Source: a virus. Taken from it: a stretch of 22,345 nucleotides of DNA. How positions within the stretch are numbered: position 1 is the stretch's first letter; every line of letters starts with the position of its first letter. The position numbers were made by a program, and so were the translations under genes. The stretch lies in the IMG/VR virus record IMGVR_UViG_3300028596_000070, positions 1-22,345 of that record; one strand, given 5' to 3'. The notes under the pieces are model-generated. The model was not told the origin of the DNA, searched no databases, and saw only the letters and a program-made list of their open reading frames with translations. Shown here one piece after another: positions 16,234 to 22,053 of this stretch.

Positions 16234-16249
16234 CATGCCCGGAGAATCT

Positions 16250-18268
16250 ATGCGCTACAACACTGGCAACCCGGTCGGGACTGATGGCTCCAGTTCGCCG
16301 TTCGACCTGCACGACAACTCTGGAAATATCGATGTATGGGCCAACGACAGGTCCCGGCTGACATGGCCAGACCGGCTTGGAGTTGACCGAAAAACGTTCT
16401 TCGGGATGGAGCAACAAGTCACCGACTACCTGATCGACCAGGGCTACGAATCGGTATACCTAACCTACGGCGTCGGGGTCGTCGTTGAGCGCCAGACCCA
16501 GCTAGTGCAACGCAGCGGTGAACTGTACCGAGTAACCAACGCTGCGGATATTCCGCTCACCTTGACAGGCACCTGGGCAACCGATTCGCTCAAGCTTCAG
16601 GCGGTTGGTGACGCGGCTTTGCGTCAAGCCCTAGCCTCTTCCTCGGGAGCAACGTATGTCCATCGAGGGGCGAGTACCGTTGACGCTGATTTGACGGCAC
16701 TTGAGGGGCGAGCTACCGAGGCTGAGGCTGATATTGCTCAGCTGGAAACCGATGTTGCGAACATCCCTCTTAACCTGCCTCCGTCGAATATGGCGCAGCC
16801 GCTCATGTCGCGCTCGAATAAGGTCCTAAGTAACGCGCAGGGCGTGGTGATCTTGGGCGATTCGATCAGCGCAGGCGCCTATTTCGGAAACGCCTACACT
16901 CAAGGCTGGCCCTACCTCCTGGCAAAGGCTATCAACCACCATTTCGGCGGCCAGAACATCGGCGCCATTCCGATGGACTCGCTGCACAACCCAGTGGTCG
17001 CCTACAACACGGACCAGTTGCATTCAGTAACTTGGTCGGGTAACTGGGGTACTCGCGCGTCGTCACCCGCGCCCTACGATGTACCGATCGGTAACGTCGG
17101 AACCGCAGCAGGCGATGCCGTGAACGGGAAGACCGTAGTATCCAGCGAGGCAGGTGCTTACGTTGAGTTTGTAATGCCATTCATCAACGGTATCGCCGCC
17201 ATCTACTATGTCGGCCGCCCTGACGGTGGGAAATTCGATATATCGGTAAATGGTGGCACCCCAACGGAACTGGACACATTCCTAGCGACGAAGACCTATA
17301 ACCGCACGCGCAACGTAACGCTGACGGATAACGGACTAGGTGAGGTGACTGTGCGCCTTACCAAAAAGGACGCAAGCCCCACGGAACTGCAGTCGGTAGT
17401 CAAATACCAGAAATCTACCGGAAGCCAGTTTGACCACCTACCCCTGATGAACGTTTGCAATTTCTCGATCAGTGGCAGGCAGCTGGCTGCAATGTCTGAG
17501 CAGGGCATCATTGCCGCTACCAACTGTGCGTGCTTGATTCTTGCGCTCGGCTACAACGATCGATTTGCTGAAACCGATAACTCTTACTACGCCGACTATC
17601 TGGTGCGGGTTAACTGGCTAATAAACTACGCCAACGTAAATAAATGCCTAGTTGTGGTAAATGACTTCTGCTGGTACTGGCCCAAGACAGCGCGAGTCCG
17701 CACTCAGCTGCGCCGGATTGCGAAGGAGACGAACGGTATTTACATCCCGTTCCCTGACAAGTTTTACCCGGACGGCACAATCCCGACCGACACCACACCC
17801 GCGTCGTCTGAGCTTGTATCTGATATGCGTCTGTTTGCTGACAACGCGCATCCAAGCTACAAGGGAAACGAGATGATTTTTGCCGAGGTGGCAAAGGCTC
17901 TCGGCCTGCATGTCAGGACAAAGCGTGATGCGCTGCTGAATGACATCCCGTACCCGCTGAAATTGCAAGGCACTCTGCGCAACAAGGCAGGATCCGTATC
18001 TACGGTATCCCGAACCCAGCGCGGCCTGCTCTACAGCCTAGGGGTAACAGCTACCGGTGGAGGGACGATTGCGGCCGGCACAGTCGCAGTGGCCGTCGTG
18101 CCTGCAAAGTTCAATTCAGCACCTGGCTTGCGCCAAAGCATCAATATAAACAGCGTTTCCGGGTCGGCCATCGGCTCGTTTACAACTACGGCAGATGACG
18201 GATCCGTTAGCGCTACAGTCGTGACTGCAGCAGAGATTGCGTCAACCTTCGAGGTGGCACAGAAGTAA
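16250..18268 (+). CDS. Tail fibre / receptor-binding protein with SGNH hydrolase domain
   Basis: 672 residues from ATG 16250 (GGAG five bases upstream); the in-frame ATG at 16235 lies before the ribosome site. The N-terminus MRYNTGNPVGTDGSSSPFDL and the segment to about residue 135 are a conserved tail-attachment domain of Pseudomonas and other phage fibres. Residues 145-172 form a short coiled coil. The hydrolase domain (about 195-555) has VVILGDSIS with nucleophile Ser205 (SGNH block I), GYND with Asn436 (block III) and DNAHP with Asp531 and His534 (block V), so the catalytic set looks complete. Such domains in fibres usually deacylate surface polysaccharide. The C-terminal 110 residues, rich in Ser, Thr, Val and Gly, look like a trimeric beta tip. 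Confidence 0.88.
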   Translation: MRYNTGNPVGTDGSSSPFDLHDNSGNIDVWANDRSRLTWPDRLGVDRKTFFGMEQQVTDYLIDQGYESVYLTYGVGVVVERQTQLVQRSGELYRVTNAADIPLTLTGTWATDSLKLQAVGDAALRQALASSSGATYVHRGASTVDADLTALEGRATEAEADIAQLETDVANIPLNLPPSNMAQPLMSRSNKVLSNAQGVVILGDSISAGAYFGNAYTQGWPYLLAKAINHHFGGQNIGAIPMDSLHNPVVAYNTDQLHSVTWSGNWGTRASSPAPYDVPIGNVGTAAGDAVNGKTVVSSEAGAYVEFVMPFINGIAAIYYVGRPDGGKFDISVNGGTPTELDTFLATKTYNRTRNVTLTDNGLGEVTVRLTKKDASPTELQSVVKYQKSTGSQFDHLPLMNVCNFSISGRQLAAMSEQGIIAATNCACLILALGYNDRFAETDNSYYADYLVRVNWLINYANVNKCLVVVNDFCWYWPKTARVRTQLRRIAKETNGIYIPFPDKFYPDGTIPTDTTPASSELVSDMRLFADNAHPSYKGNEMIFAEVAKALGLHVRTKRDALLNDIPYPLKLQGTLRNKAGSVSTVSRTQRGLLYSLGVTATGGGTIAAGTVAVAVVPAKFNSAPGLRQSININSVSGSAIGSFTTTADDGSVSATVVTAAEIASTFEVAQK

Positions 18269-18398: not shown

Positions 18399-18815
18399 TT
18401 AAGGTATGAAAATCTCAGCCGAACCAGTTATTACCTTCTTGCCTTTTACAGTGCATACTGTTTCAAAAAACACACGCCTTTTTTTAATATCTACTGAAGA
18501 CACTGATACAGTTGCGGTGACTGTGTCGTCTATATAGACTGGGCGAAGGAATGATAGATTCTGTGAGACATATACGCAGCCAGGCCCAGGAAATTTTGTA
18601 CCGAAAATTGCAGAAAAAAAGCCTGCAGACATAAGGCCATGCGCAATACGCTTCTTGAAGCGAGACTTTTCAGCATACTCGCTGTCGACATGAACAGGGT
18701 TATGATCCCCACTAAGCCCAGCAAAAGACTTGATATCTGAGTCTGTAATTGTCTGTGAGTAGCTCGCAGACATACCAGCTTCGATCTTCTCTATTGGAAT
18801 GCTTCCAAGGTTCAT
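18399..18815 (-). CDS. MaoC/PhaJ-like (R)-specific hydratase
   Basis: 138 residues, hot-dog fold. It carries the full hydratase motif FAGLSGDHNPVHVDSEYA (31-48), with the expected catalytic Asp37 and His42, so it should be active. Family members interconvert trans-2-enoyl-CoA (or ACP) and (R)-3-hydroxyacyl thioesters. I chose ATG 18815, one base after the stop of the acyltransferase (TGA G ATG on the minus strand), because residues before it are shadow sequence of that gene. A GGGGGGT stretch over the stop can serve as ribosome site, so the pair is tightly coupled. The gene is AT-rich (23 and 22 G+C in the 60-base blocks 18421-18480 and 18481-18540), unlike the phage body, which marks it as acquired. 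Substrate unknown. Confidence 0.88.
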   Translation of the reverse strand: MNLGSIPIEKIEAGMSASYSQTITDSDIKSFAGLSGDHNPVHVDSEYAEKSRFKKRIAHGLMSAGFFSAIFGTKFPGPGCVYVSQNLSFLRPVYIDDTVTATVSVSSVDIKKRRVFFETVCTVKGKKVITGSAEIFIP

Positions 18816-18816
18816 C

Positions 18817-19479
18817 TCAACCCCCCAGCCCGGCACGTAGAGGTTTTGCCGGGTTCCCGACAACAGTCGCGCCCGGCGCAACGCTCTTTGTCACAACCGC
18901 CCCCATCCCTACGATAGCTCCTGCGCCAATTACTACAGGTTTGGACGGGGTGCCTTGCTTGATAATTGCGCCAGTTCCGATGTATGCGTGGTCCTCAATA
19001 ACGACATTGCCATTGCACTTCACGCCTGGTGCGAAAGTCACGAAATCGCCAATTACACAGTCGTGCGCTACATAGGAGTAGATGTTTGCTTGAAAGAATT
19101 TGCCAATCTTGGAATTCGAGGTAACCATTGTGAAAGGGCAAAGAACACTACCGTCACCAATCTCGTTTTCGGCGAGAGTCATTGCGTTAGAAGATCGTAT
19201 CTTGAAAGGCCTAGCACCTCTGCCCATCATGGCCTCAGCAACCTTTTCGCGGGTCCTCCCGCTACCTATCGCAATATTGAAGAGGTACTCATCTGCTTGA
19301 ACCTCAAAAAATCTATCTGTGGTTAGCACATCAAACCCGTTGATCTTGGTCTCTTCAATTCCATCGTCAATGAAAACTAGTCGAAAAGGATCGTTACAGA
19401 TCATCGCAAGATATTCTTTGGCAACAGGCATCACCTCCCTGCCAAAGCCGCCCGCTCCAACTATTCCGTAAAGCTTCAT
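18817..19479 (-). CDS. NeuD/PglD-like left-handed beta-helix acyltransferase
   Basis: 220 residues from ATG 19479, with GAGGG eight bases upstream; an earlier in-frame start at 19509 lacks such a site. The N-terminal domain has KLYGIVGAGGFGREV (2-16), the nucleotide-sugar-binding Rossmann-like start of the NeuD/PglD family. From about residue 105 hexapeptide repeats form the beta helix (IGDGSVLCPFTMV, IGKFFQANIYSYVAHDCVIGDFVTFAPGVKCNGNVVIEDHAYIGTGA), with His139 as likely catalytic base. The end VVTKSVAPGATVVGNPAKPL is typical. Relatives move acetyl or other acyl groups from acyl-CoA to an amino or hydroxyl group of a (nucleotide) sugar for O-antigen, capsule or protein glycans. It is first in the leftward pair with the MaoC-like gene, which suggests the acyl group may be non-standard. 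Confidence 0.9.
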   Translation of the reverse strand: MKLYGIVGAGGFGREVMPVAKEYLAMICNDPFRLVFIDDGIEETKINGFDVLTTDRFFEVQADEYLFNIAIGSGRTREKVAEAMMGRGARPFKIRSSNAMTLAENEIGDGSVLCPFTMVTSNSKIGKFFQANIYSYVAHDCVIGDFVTFAPGVKCNGNVVIEDHAYIGTGAIIKQGTPSKPVVIGAGAIVGMGAVVTKSVAPGATVVGNPAKPLRAGLGG

Positions 19480-19524
19480 TTCTAAATCCCTCGATAACAT
19501 GATGGGCAAATTCGATGATGCCGA

Positions 19525-19553
19525 ATGATACCGGCGATGGCTCGATAAACCAA
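19525..19553 (-). promoter_or_regulatory. Candidate promoter for the leftward island
   Basis: On the minus strand TTGGTT (19553-19548), 17 bases, TATCAT (19530-19525). The -10 matches TATAAT at five of six positions and the -35 matches three of six, with ideal spacing. Transcription would start near 19518, about 40 bases before the acyltransferase ATG. An own promoter would allow expression from the prophage, while late genes are silent. Confidence 0.5.
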
Positions 19554-19603
19554 CGACCTGCCAATTTCAGGCCGATCAATGCGGCATTTCCCTTGGAGAA
19601 ACC

Positions 19604-20092
19604 ATGGCCAGACTCACCGAAACCCAGGCCGGAGGCGCGAACGTGCTCCGGTTTCTGGACCTGATCGCTTTCTCAGAAGGCACCTCTACCGTCAAGGCGA
19701 GCGATGACGGCTACAACGTGCTGTATGGCGGCGGCCTGTTTCAGGGTTATGCCGATCACCCGCGGCGCAAGCTGACTTTCCCCATCAACGGGAAACCGGT
19801 GACCAGCACAGCTGCCGGCCGGTACCAGCTGCTAGAGCGTTACTGGGATGCGTACGGGGCCAGCCTTCGCCTGGCGGGCGGATTCACGCCGGAGAACCAG
19901 GACCGCATCGCGCTGCAGCAGATCCGCGAACGCAAGGCCCTGGACGATATCAAGGCCGGCCGCATCCAGCAGGCTATCGCTAAGTGCTCGAACATCTGGG
20001 CGTCGCTGCCAGGCAACACCTACGGGCAGAACCCGCATCGCCTGGACAAGCTGCTGGCTCAGTGGGAGGAGCTCGGCGGGGTGATCCCATGA
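19604..20092 (+). CDS. Endolysin, GH104 (lambda R-like lytic transglycosylase)
   Basis: 162 residues. LDLIAFSEGTST (18-29) supplies the catalytic Glu25 of the lambda R/GH104 family. YNVLYGGGLF (37-46) and TSTAAGRYQLLERYW (66-80) are further family hallmarks, as is the final LDKLLAQWEELGG. It would cleave the peptidoglycan glycan strand by transglycosylation. It has no signal peptide or membrane segment, so it should need a holin to reach the periplasm, and none is encoded beside it. GGAG (19595-19598) lies five bases before ATG 19604. Its stop overlaps the next start (ATGA). Confidence 0.92.
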   Translation: MARLTETQAGGANVLRFLDLIAFSEGTSTVKASDDGYNVLYGGGLFQGYADHPRRKLTFPINGKPVTSTAAGRYQLLERYWDAYGASLRLAGGFTPENQDRIALQQIRERKALDDIKAGRIQQAIAKCSNIWASLPGNTYGQNPHRLDKLLAQWEELGGVIP

Positions 20093-20862: not shown

Positions 20863-22053
20863 TTAACCCTGTCCAAAAACCATGACCGGCAGAACCATGT
20901 CGGCCCATGCCTGCATCATGTCGCGGCGCTGCTCTATATATGTGGCGTGGTTGTACACGTCACGGATGGCGCTGCTGTCGGCGTGGGCCAGCTGGCGCTC
21001 GATCCAGTCCTTGTTGTAGCCGCGACTGTTCATCTCCGTGGAAAACAGATGTCGGAAACCGTGCGGAGATTGCCGGCCGGTATAGCCGCAGCGGTCCAAC
21101 AGGTTAACTGCGTAATTGATGCCGATCGGTCGAACCGCATCGGATCGGTTCGGGAATACGTACTTCATGCCGCCGGATATCGGAAGCATCGAGCGCAGTA
21201 TCTCCACGGCCTGCCGCGACAGCGGCACCACGTGGTCGCGGCGCATCTTCATCTTGCTGGCAGGGATAGACCAGGTCGCCGCGGCCAGATCGATTTCCGC
21301 CCATTCGGCCTTGCGCACCTCTGCTGGACGGCAGGCTGTGAGGATCAGCAGCTTGGTTGCGCACTGCAGTTGCAGGCCTGACTGGCTTTGCTCGATGGCC
21401 TTGATAATGGCGGGCATTTCGGAGAAGGCCAGGAACGGCCGGTGTTTGTGCGGCGCCATCTTCTCTGTGACAGTGTGCATTTCCGCCGTGGGGTTGTTCT
21501 CGATCATGCCGGTGGCAATCGCATACCGGAATACCTGCCCCATCCACTGCCTCGCCTTGACCGCGGTGGTCAGCGATCCTCGGCGCTCAATTCGGCGAAT
21601 CAGCGTGATCACGTCTGACCGCTTTATGGAGTCGATCTGGCGCAGGCCGAAGGCCGGCAGTACATCCAGTTCCATCGCATTCGAAATGATCTTGACTGTC
21701 GACTCGGTCAGGCTCCCCTTCCTGAATTCCAGCCACTCGTCATAGACGCGGCGGAATGTCCTCTCCTGGGCGCCTAGGCGCTCTGTCTTCTTCACCCTCC
21801 TTGATTCGCGCGGATCAGTTCCCCGCGCGACCTCTTCGCGCGCCTCATCCCTCCGCGCACGCGCCTCCTTCAGTCCGATCTCTGGGTAAGTCCCAAGCGA
21901 AATCCTGGCCTGCTTGCCCAGCCAGGTGAACCTGAAATGCCAGCTCTTCACGCCAGTGTCGGCGATGTACAGCGTGAGCCCGAGCGAGTCCGCAAGGGTA
22001 TAGCCCTTTTCCCGGGGCTTGGCCTGCCTGGCCGCGGTGTCCGTGAGCGCCAC
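20863..22053 (-). CDS. int: Tyrosine site-specific integrase, P4 type
   Basis: 396 residues, full length. It would insert and excise the prophage. The N-terminal arm-binding domain (DUF4102 type) spans about 1-90, with KGYTLADSLGLTLYI and ARISLGTYPEIGLKEARARR. The central SAM-like core-binding domain is about 98-185. The catalytic domain (about 205-385) shows TACRPAEV with Arg242, HGFRH with His331 and Arg334, LAHAD with His357 and DVYNHA with nucleophile Tyr367, ending in the usual RRDMMQAWAD. GTG 22053 is the start, with GAGAGG about ten bases upstream on the minus strand. It converges with the lysis genes, and its 5' end faces the likely attachment site. No excisionase gene is seen next to it. 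Confidence 0.95.
   Translation of the reverse strand: MALTDTAARQAKPREKGYTLADSLGLTLYIADTGVKSWHFRFTWLGKQARISLGTYPEIGLKEARARRDEAREEVARGTDPRESRRVKKTERLGAQERTFRRVYDEWLEFRKGSLTESTVKIISNAMELDVLPAFGLRQIDSIKRSDVITLIRRIERRGSLTTAVKARQWMGQVFRYAIATGMIENNPTAEMHTVTEKMAPHKHRPFLAFSEMPAIIKAIEQSQSGLQLQCATKLLILTACRPAEVRKAEWAEIDLAAATWSIPASKMKMRRDHVVPLSRQAVEILRSMLPISGGMKYVFPNRSDAVRPIGINYAVNLLDRCGYTGRQSPHGFRHLFSTEMNSRGYNKDWIERQLAHADSSAIRDVYNHATYIEQRRDMMQAWADMVLPVMVFGQG

Follow-up and report, generated by a model that had tools for sequence, protein, structure and literature searches.

The IMG/VR virus record IMGVR_UViG_3300028596_000070 (positions 1 to 22,345; hereafter the window, meaning this whole stretch of 22,345 bases) carries two coupled, reversed genes (18399–19479, minus strand) between its tail fibre and endolysin genes, one for a NeuD-type sugar N-acyltransferase and one for a MaoC-type hydratase. 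We consider, with a probability of about 0.7, that this pair is a lysogenic-conversion cassette (moron) altering the N-acyl group on a nucleotide 4-amino-4,6-dideoxy sugar of the host surface polysaccharide, probably to 3-hydroxybutyryl. Both genes derive from a bacterial cell-surface sugar pathway, and comparative evidence supports the prediction that together they form a module which adds an acyl group, most likely a 3-hydroxyacyl, to a nucleotide amino sugar.

The cassette and its products

The upstream gene (18817–19479, minus strand) encodes a left-handed beta-helix sugar N-acyltransferase of the NeuD/PglD/VioB/WeeI type (220 aa). It scores 177.8 bits with TIGR03570 (curated cut-off 160.8) and exceeds the cut-offs of PF17836 (PglD_N) and PF00132 (Hexapep); its best solved match is 4m9c (59% identity, E 1.5e-78), with which the catalytic His139 (SYVAHDC) aligns, and this residue is invariant in the aligned relatives. 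The second gene (18399–18815, minus strand) encodes a MaoC-type (R-hydratase-like) enoyl-CoA hydratase (138 aa), the predicted donor-making enzyme. It scores 95 bits with PF01575 (cut-off 27), its nearest solved structures are the enoyl-CoA hydratases 5cpg, 3ir3 and 1iq6, and its D-x-N-P-x-H motif (SGDHNPVH; i.e. D37, N39, P40 and H42) is invariant in the aligned relatives. Both frames are intact, and a single base separates the NeuD stop (18819–18817) from the MaoC ATG (18815).

A preliminary description of this DNA had proposed two coupled minus-strand genes with stop and start one base apart, encoding an intact MaoC enzyme (Asp37, His42) and a NeuD/PglD-like enzyme (His139); coordinates, residues and family scores agree with it. 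The AT-rich block that it placed between tail fibre and lysis genes is equally clear: GC content is 47.2% in the cassette versus 61.0% in the rest of the window, the minimum among 377 other 1081-bp segments is 54.1%, and the fibre (16235–18268) and endolysin (19604–20092) genes flank the cassette. Its proposal of an own terminator is borne out by a minus-strand hairpin (18381–18360; 9-bp stem, 4-nt loop, -17.3 kcal/mol, folding z = -2.9) followed by CTTTTATTAT, the tail being U-rich. A search of the window with the PADLOC defence catalogue matched 0 families.

Genomic partners of the two enzymes

We sought relatives of the MaoC protein across 84,980 species genomes. For all eight relatives at 67–75% identity, a hexapeptide acyltransferase gene lies at most 60 bp away and the surrounding polysaccharide cluster includes an aminotransferase; most of these loci also contain a WbpM-type dehydratase and a PglC-type initiating transferase. 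By contrast, only one of the 19 distant loci checked (36–50% identity) adjoins a hexapeptide acyltransferase. The phage MaoC therefore belongs to a distinct glycan subfamily rather than to the storage-polymer PhaJ enzymes, and a PhaJ orthologue of polyhydroxyalkanoate metabolism was rejected as a candidate on the same grounds. The single distant case (L131:6001–6345), a Bacteroidales MaoC of 45% identity that adjoins a hexapeptide protein and an aminotransferase, is possibly an independent one. MaoC adjoins hexapeptide enzymes in L090 and an N-acetyltransferase in E. coli X14-3. Close MaoC genes occur in only 4 of 398 Pseudomonadaceae genomes, every one in a glycan cluster, with no prophage copies among them.

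Single-protein and profile scans of IMG/VR viral contigs gave no close MaoC relative except L168, which was rejected: its gene is PhaJ-like, has an acyl-CoA ligase and a lipase as neighbours and apparently lies in the host flank of a Mu-like phage. A close NeuD–MaoC pair was not found in other IMG/VR contigs, and a plasmid search at 1e-30 returned no MaoC match. Small 'Enterococcus' and 'Listeria' phage records contain unannotated MaoC-like matches at 30–35% identity.

The acyltransferase leads to the same kind of locus. Its nearest Pseudomonadaceae relatives (48–70% identity) lie mostly in polysaccharide clusters of the kind that hold close MaoC genes, and the nearest of all (L202 and L083) share their clusters with WbpM or O-unit genes. 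In the transferase tree, the window copy falls together with one from a Pseudomonas cluster (99/98). The phage label must change at least five times on this tree, which indicates several captures of the acyltransferase by phages. In three Pseudomonas loci (L203:8240–9094, L205:6594–7448 and L206:6326–7180), an acyltransferase of 57–60% identity is followed not by MaoC but by a 3-hydroxybutyryl-CoA dehydrogenase (HBD), an alternative donor-making partner. Thus two unrelated enzymes, each able to yield 3-hydroxybutyryl-CoA, partner one transferase family. Position 118, about one beta-helix coil from His139, is Thr, Cys or Met in MaoC/HBD-paired acyltransferases and mostly Gln, His or Asn in unpaired ones, a difference that is not significant by permutation. 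Another NeuD relative (L204:176–7946; 59%) has genes for a methyltransferase, an aminotransferase and a 1451-aa glycosyltransferase nearby, and the locus resembles a flagellin-viosamine island.

These partnerships bear on a rival account, in which the acyl donor is acetyl-CoA or some other acyl-CoA, MaoC has merely stayed on as a neighbour of little consequence and the cassette amounts to an ordinary N-acetyltransferase moron. The closest characterised homologue, 4m9c (WeeI), is an N-acetyltransferase that uses acetyl-CoA, and its 59% identity favours this account, as do the numerous phage-borne NeuD copies without MaoC. One of these is the lone NeuD gene of Acinetobacter phage TPWB-05 (L082:3555–4226), annotated as hypothetical and lying in reverse orientation with a large tail-side gene on one side and the holin/endolysin genes on the other; other viral copies adjoin AT3 genes. 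We nevertheless regard the account as unlikely given that MaoC is intact and has stayed next to its transferase not only in the window but also in E. coli prophages (99.9–100% identity) and in many bacteria, and that a Pseudomonas transferase of the same family pairs with an unrelated 3-hydroxybutyryl-CoA enzyme.

The same pair in E. coli prophages

A search of 5426 complete E. coli genomes with a cluster MaoC found six in which NeuD and MaoC genes, one base apart, lie behind a prophage tail-fibre assembly gene (L165:6289–7384, L171:20001–21096, L172, L177 and L178; OY754389, one of the six, is known from sequence match alone). The prophage NeuD and MaoC proteins are 57% and 70% identical to those of the window, and the prophage copies are kept at 99.9–100% identity. 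There are two insertion regions, near prfC (S3 and F8704-2) and near pao (D9, D4 and OY754416). The preliminary description had named a chromosomal fragment unshared with other phages as grounds for rejecting its reading, and had suggested a search for the pair in other prophages and in O-antigen clusters; the occurrence of the pair in unrelated prophages of six genomes argues against such a fragment, and in the O-antigen cluster of E. coli O49 vioA, NeuD and MaoC are consecutive.

All six pair hosts carry vioA, the dTDP-Qui4N gene, whereas a vioA match of any kind occurs in at most 171 of the 5426 genomes (P = 9e-10 with all six hosts counted and 3e-5 with three host lineages, both values without further correction for relatedness). 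In five hosts the O-antigen cluster is O116-like and contains vioA; this cluster is present at ≥99% identity in only 8 of the 5426 genomes. The sixth, F8704-2, is O39, and its cluster contains vioA and an acyltransferase, in line with a published account (PMC4732683).

The S3-type cluster has no acyltransferase after vioA, where O116 has one. We therefore considered the prophage as the sole acyltransferase supply in S3 and rejected this: S3 and D9 have, outside the O-antigen cluster and flanked by wzzB and hisIE, a hexapeptide acyltransferase with 42% identity to the enzyme next to vioA in O116 (L179:20458–21051), and replacement is thus a safer reading than sole supply. A native acyltransferase candidate for dTDP-Qui4N is present in each of the inspected hosts S3, D9 and F8704-2.

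An exchange slot in Pseudomonas-type phages

Over its first 8 kb the window shares 74.5% identity with Pseudomonas phage SC_8_H2H8_2017, which marks it as a temperate siphophage of the Pseudomonas type. In both Pseudomonas phages P7869 and Haboob the endolysin comes directly after the tail gene, apart from one small same-strand gene in P7869, and no reversed gene lies between them. Among 41 parsable loci of IMG/VR endolysin relatives, a reversed gene of ≥230 aa separates fibre and endolysin in about a dozen, and a scan of ten low-GC slot genes gave four AT3-SGNH fusions, one AT3, one hexapeptide protein and one heparinase-like protein. Reversed, AT-rich AT3 or AT3-SGNH genes stand upstream of the endolysin in L219, L223, L236, L247 and L270, and the other occupants are a hexapeptide protein (L258), a heparinase-like protein (L263) and a DUF6492 protein (L256). 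Since it is either empty or filled with varied reversed genes, we interpret this slot as an exchange site for surface-modifying genes. The cassette has the marks of a surface-modification moron in its foreign composition, its terminator and a site that is empty in P7869 and Haboob, though no promoter above chance accompanies them.

The slot also helps to weigh two other readings. In the first, the chemistry is the same and the target is a flagellin glycan of the viosamine type rather than O-antigen or capsule. Flagellin of P. syringae carries 3-hydroxybutyryl-viosamine, and the 59% NeuD relative in the Pseudomonas island described above (L204) fits such a target. WbpM or O-unit genes, however, accompany the nearest relatives of the window acyltransferase in their clusters, vioA of the E. 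coli prophage hosts lies within O-antigen clusters and the slot otherwise houses AT3 acyltransferases, which are commonly O-antigen modifiers; we judge a flagellin target quite unlikely. In the second, the pair is a non-functional passenger, i.e. a polysaccharide-cluster fragment acquired by chance and being lost. Its AT-rich composition unlike that of the phage, the lack of a promoter above chance and the lack of a close pair among other IMG/VR contigs would suit this, but both frames are intact with all catalytic residues and an own terminator, E. coli phages in vioA hosts captured the same pair independently and sister phages hold other surface-acylation genes in the slot. A mere passenger is thus very improbable.

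Other genes of the window include a terminase, a portal, an HK97-type capsid, lambda-J-like tail genes, the tail fibre, the endolysin and a tyrosine integrase of temperate phages (20863–22053, minus strand; profile matches). The endolysin (plus strand; phrog_90, E 1.1e-54) forms the right-hand border of the slot. The tail fibre (plus strand; phrog_15518/34100), which directly adjoins the cassette, has a weak GDSL/SGNH hydrolase domain (PF13472, E 2.7e-6, below the cut-off; PF00657, 24.4 bits versus a cut-off of 23.6). This domain might be a deacylase acting on host glycan; a search of viral contigs for its relatives confirmed none.

Predicted chemistry and points against it

Known systems anchor the predicted chemistry. 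In E. coli clusters of the O123/O186 type, a MaoC with 69% identity to that of the phage stands beside an N-acyltransferase and an aminotransferase, and Qui4N in the O-antigen of E. coli O123 bears an (S)-3-hydroxybutanoyl-D-alanyl group (PMC10609480). The qhb modules of A. baumannii yield QuiNAc4N with acetyl or (S)-3-hydroxybutanoyl (PMC3628348, PMC9676051), and FdhC and QdhC place (R)-3-hydroxybutanoyl on 3-amino sugars (PMC4869667).

In the route that we propose, the phage MaoC would hydrate crotonyl-CoA to 3-hydroxybutyryl-CoA. The acceptor, UDP-QuiNAc4N or dTDP-Qui4N, would come from host enzymes, namely a dehydratase (WbpM or RmlB) and an aminotransferase of the PglE or VioA type, and the NeuD-type enzyme would move the 3-hydroxybutyryl group onto its free 4-amino group in the cytoplasm. 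If expressed in the lysogen, the phage transferase would compete with the host N-acetyltransferase, and the polymer would receive 3-hydroxybutyryl in place of acetyl; the likely benefit would be an altered phage receptor or antigen, perhaps with exclusion of other phages. We also think it fairly probable that such a two-gene conversion, in which the phage supplies both donor enzyme and N-acyltransferase and replaces the nucleotide-sugar N-acyl group before polymer assembly, arose more than once (in Pseudomonas-type and in E. coli phages), and in E. coli in vioA hosts only.

Several points weigh against the 3-hydroxybutyryl conversion cassette. (i) The record is a virus fragment without a host genome, so the 4-amino sugar of the window's host is not seen. 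(ii) A minus-strand sigma-70 scan gave zero sites above threshold, and the own promoter claimed in the preliminary description is no better than chance; the region between the cassette and the divergent endolysin gene (19480–19603, minus strand) offers a ribosome-site-like GAGGGA before the ATG at 19479 and, as best promoter candidate by eye, TTGGTT-N17-TATCAT (about 8/12). (iii) The acyl identity and the transferase activity are predictions; no position separated MaoC/HBD-paired from unpaired acyltransferases better than label permutation, the predicted acyl identity therefore resting on genomic partnership, and the acetyl-CoA use of WeeI points the other way. (iv) The neighbour of MaoC in the O123 cluster is a GNAT, not a NeuD. 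(v) MaoC/PhaJ enzymes are normally (R)-specific, whereas the O123 and A. baumannii QuiNAc4NHb anchors are (S). (vi) The vioA of F8704-2 (L216:12980–14091) is annotated as frameshifted in that assembly, and the vioA statistics share the relatedness limit given with them. Of the 3-hydroxyacyl donor and sugar acylation put forward in the preliminary description, the operon context in eight bacteria, the exchange of MaoC for a dehydrogenase partner and the O123 chemistry favour the general idea; its (R) configuration finds no support, the nearest chemical anchors being (S).

Comparison with known systems

When phages change bacterial surface polysaccharides, the mechanisms usually reported are O-acetylation, glucosylation and altered polymerization of finished units. 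A close chemical parallel to the cassette is the Acinetobacter capsule qhb/wee module, which comprises an acyltransferase of the same family (QhbA/QhbC/WeeI), an aminotransferase (QhbB/WeeJ) and a dehydratase (Gdr/WeeK) and makes UDP-QuiNAc4NAc or UDP-QuiNAc4NHb (PMC3628348, PMC9676051). The predicted product of the phage cassette is the same acyl-amino sugar, but the cassette has only the acyltransferase and the MaoC donor gene, and the sugar must be host-made. FdhC/QdhC of E. coli O103, Acinetobacter and Hafnia likewise put 3-hydroxybutanoyl onto an amino sugar, but they are chromosomal and act on 3-amino sugars (PMC4869667). PhaJ, the (R)-specific enoyl-CoA hydratase (1iq6 and 5cpg), shares the fold family and the Asp/His motif with the phage MaoC, which falls in the separate glycan-cluster subfamily and whose activity is predicted only.

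Among phage-borne systems, epaA–epaB of A. baumannii prophages is likewise a two-gene set that modifies a host sugar component and changes the capsule, without acyl transfer or donor synthesis (PMC12053666). The phage O-acetyltransferases atr29/atr30 (PMC6586298) and the AT3/OafA-type converting acetylases also acylate surface polysaccharides, and AT3 genes fill the slot of the cassette in sister phages; theirs is O-acetylation, as opposed to the N-acylation of a nucleotide sugar predicted for the cassette, and AT3 is a different enzyme family. The literature that we searched, with partial coverage, gave no report of a phage-borne MaoC and N-acyltransferase pair. Phage-borne change of capsule sugars is already known (epaA–epaB and atr29/30), and the MaoC and N-acyltransferase pair would be a little-described route. 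If our reading is true, N-acyl rewriting on the sugar precursor, with a donor enzyme of the phage's own, would be an added chemical route to serotype change. It could account for some O-antigen or capsule structures that are not predictable from locus sequence, which is relevant to typing, vaccines and phage therapy, and the unexplained MaoC genes of many O-antigen clusters would gain a role in supplying the 3-hydroxybutyryl donor.
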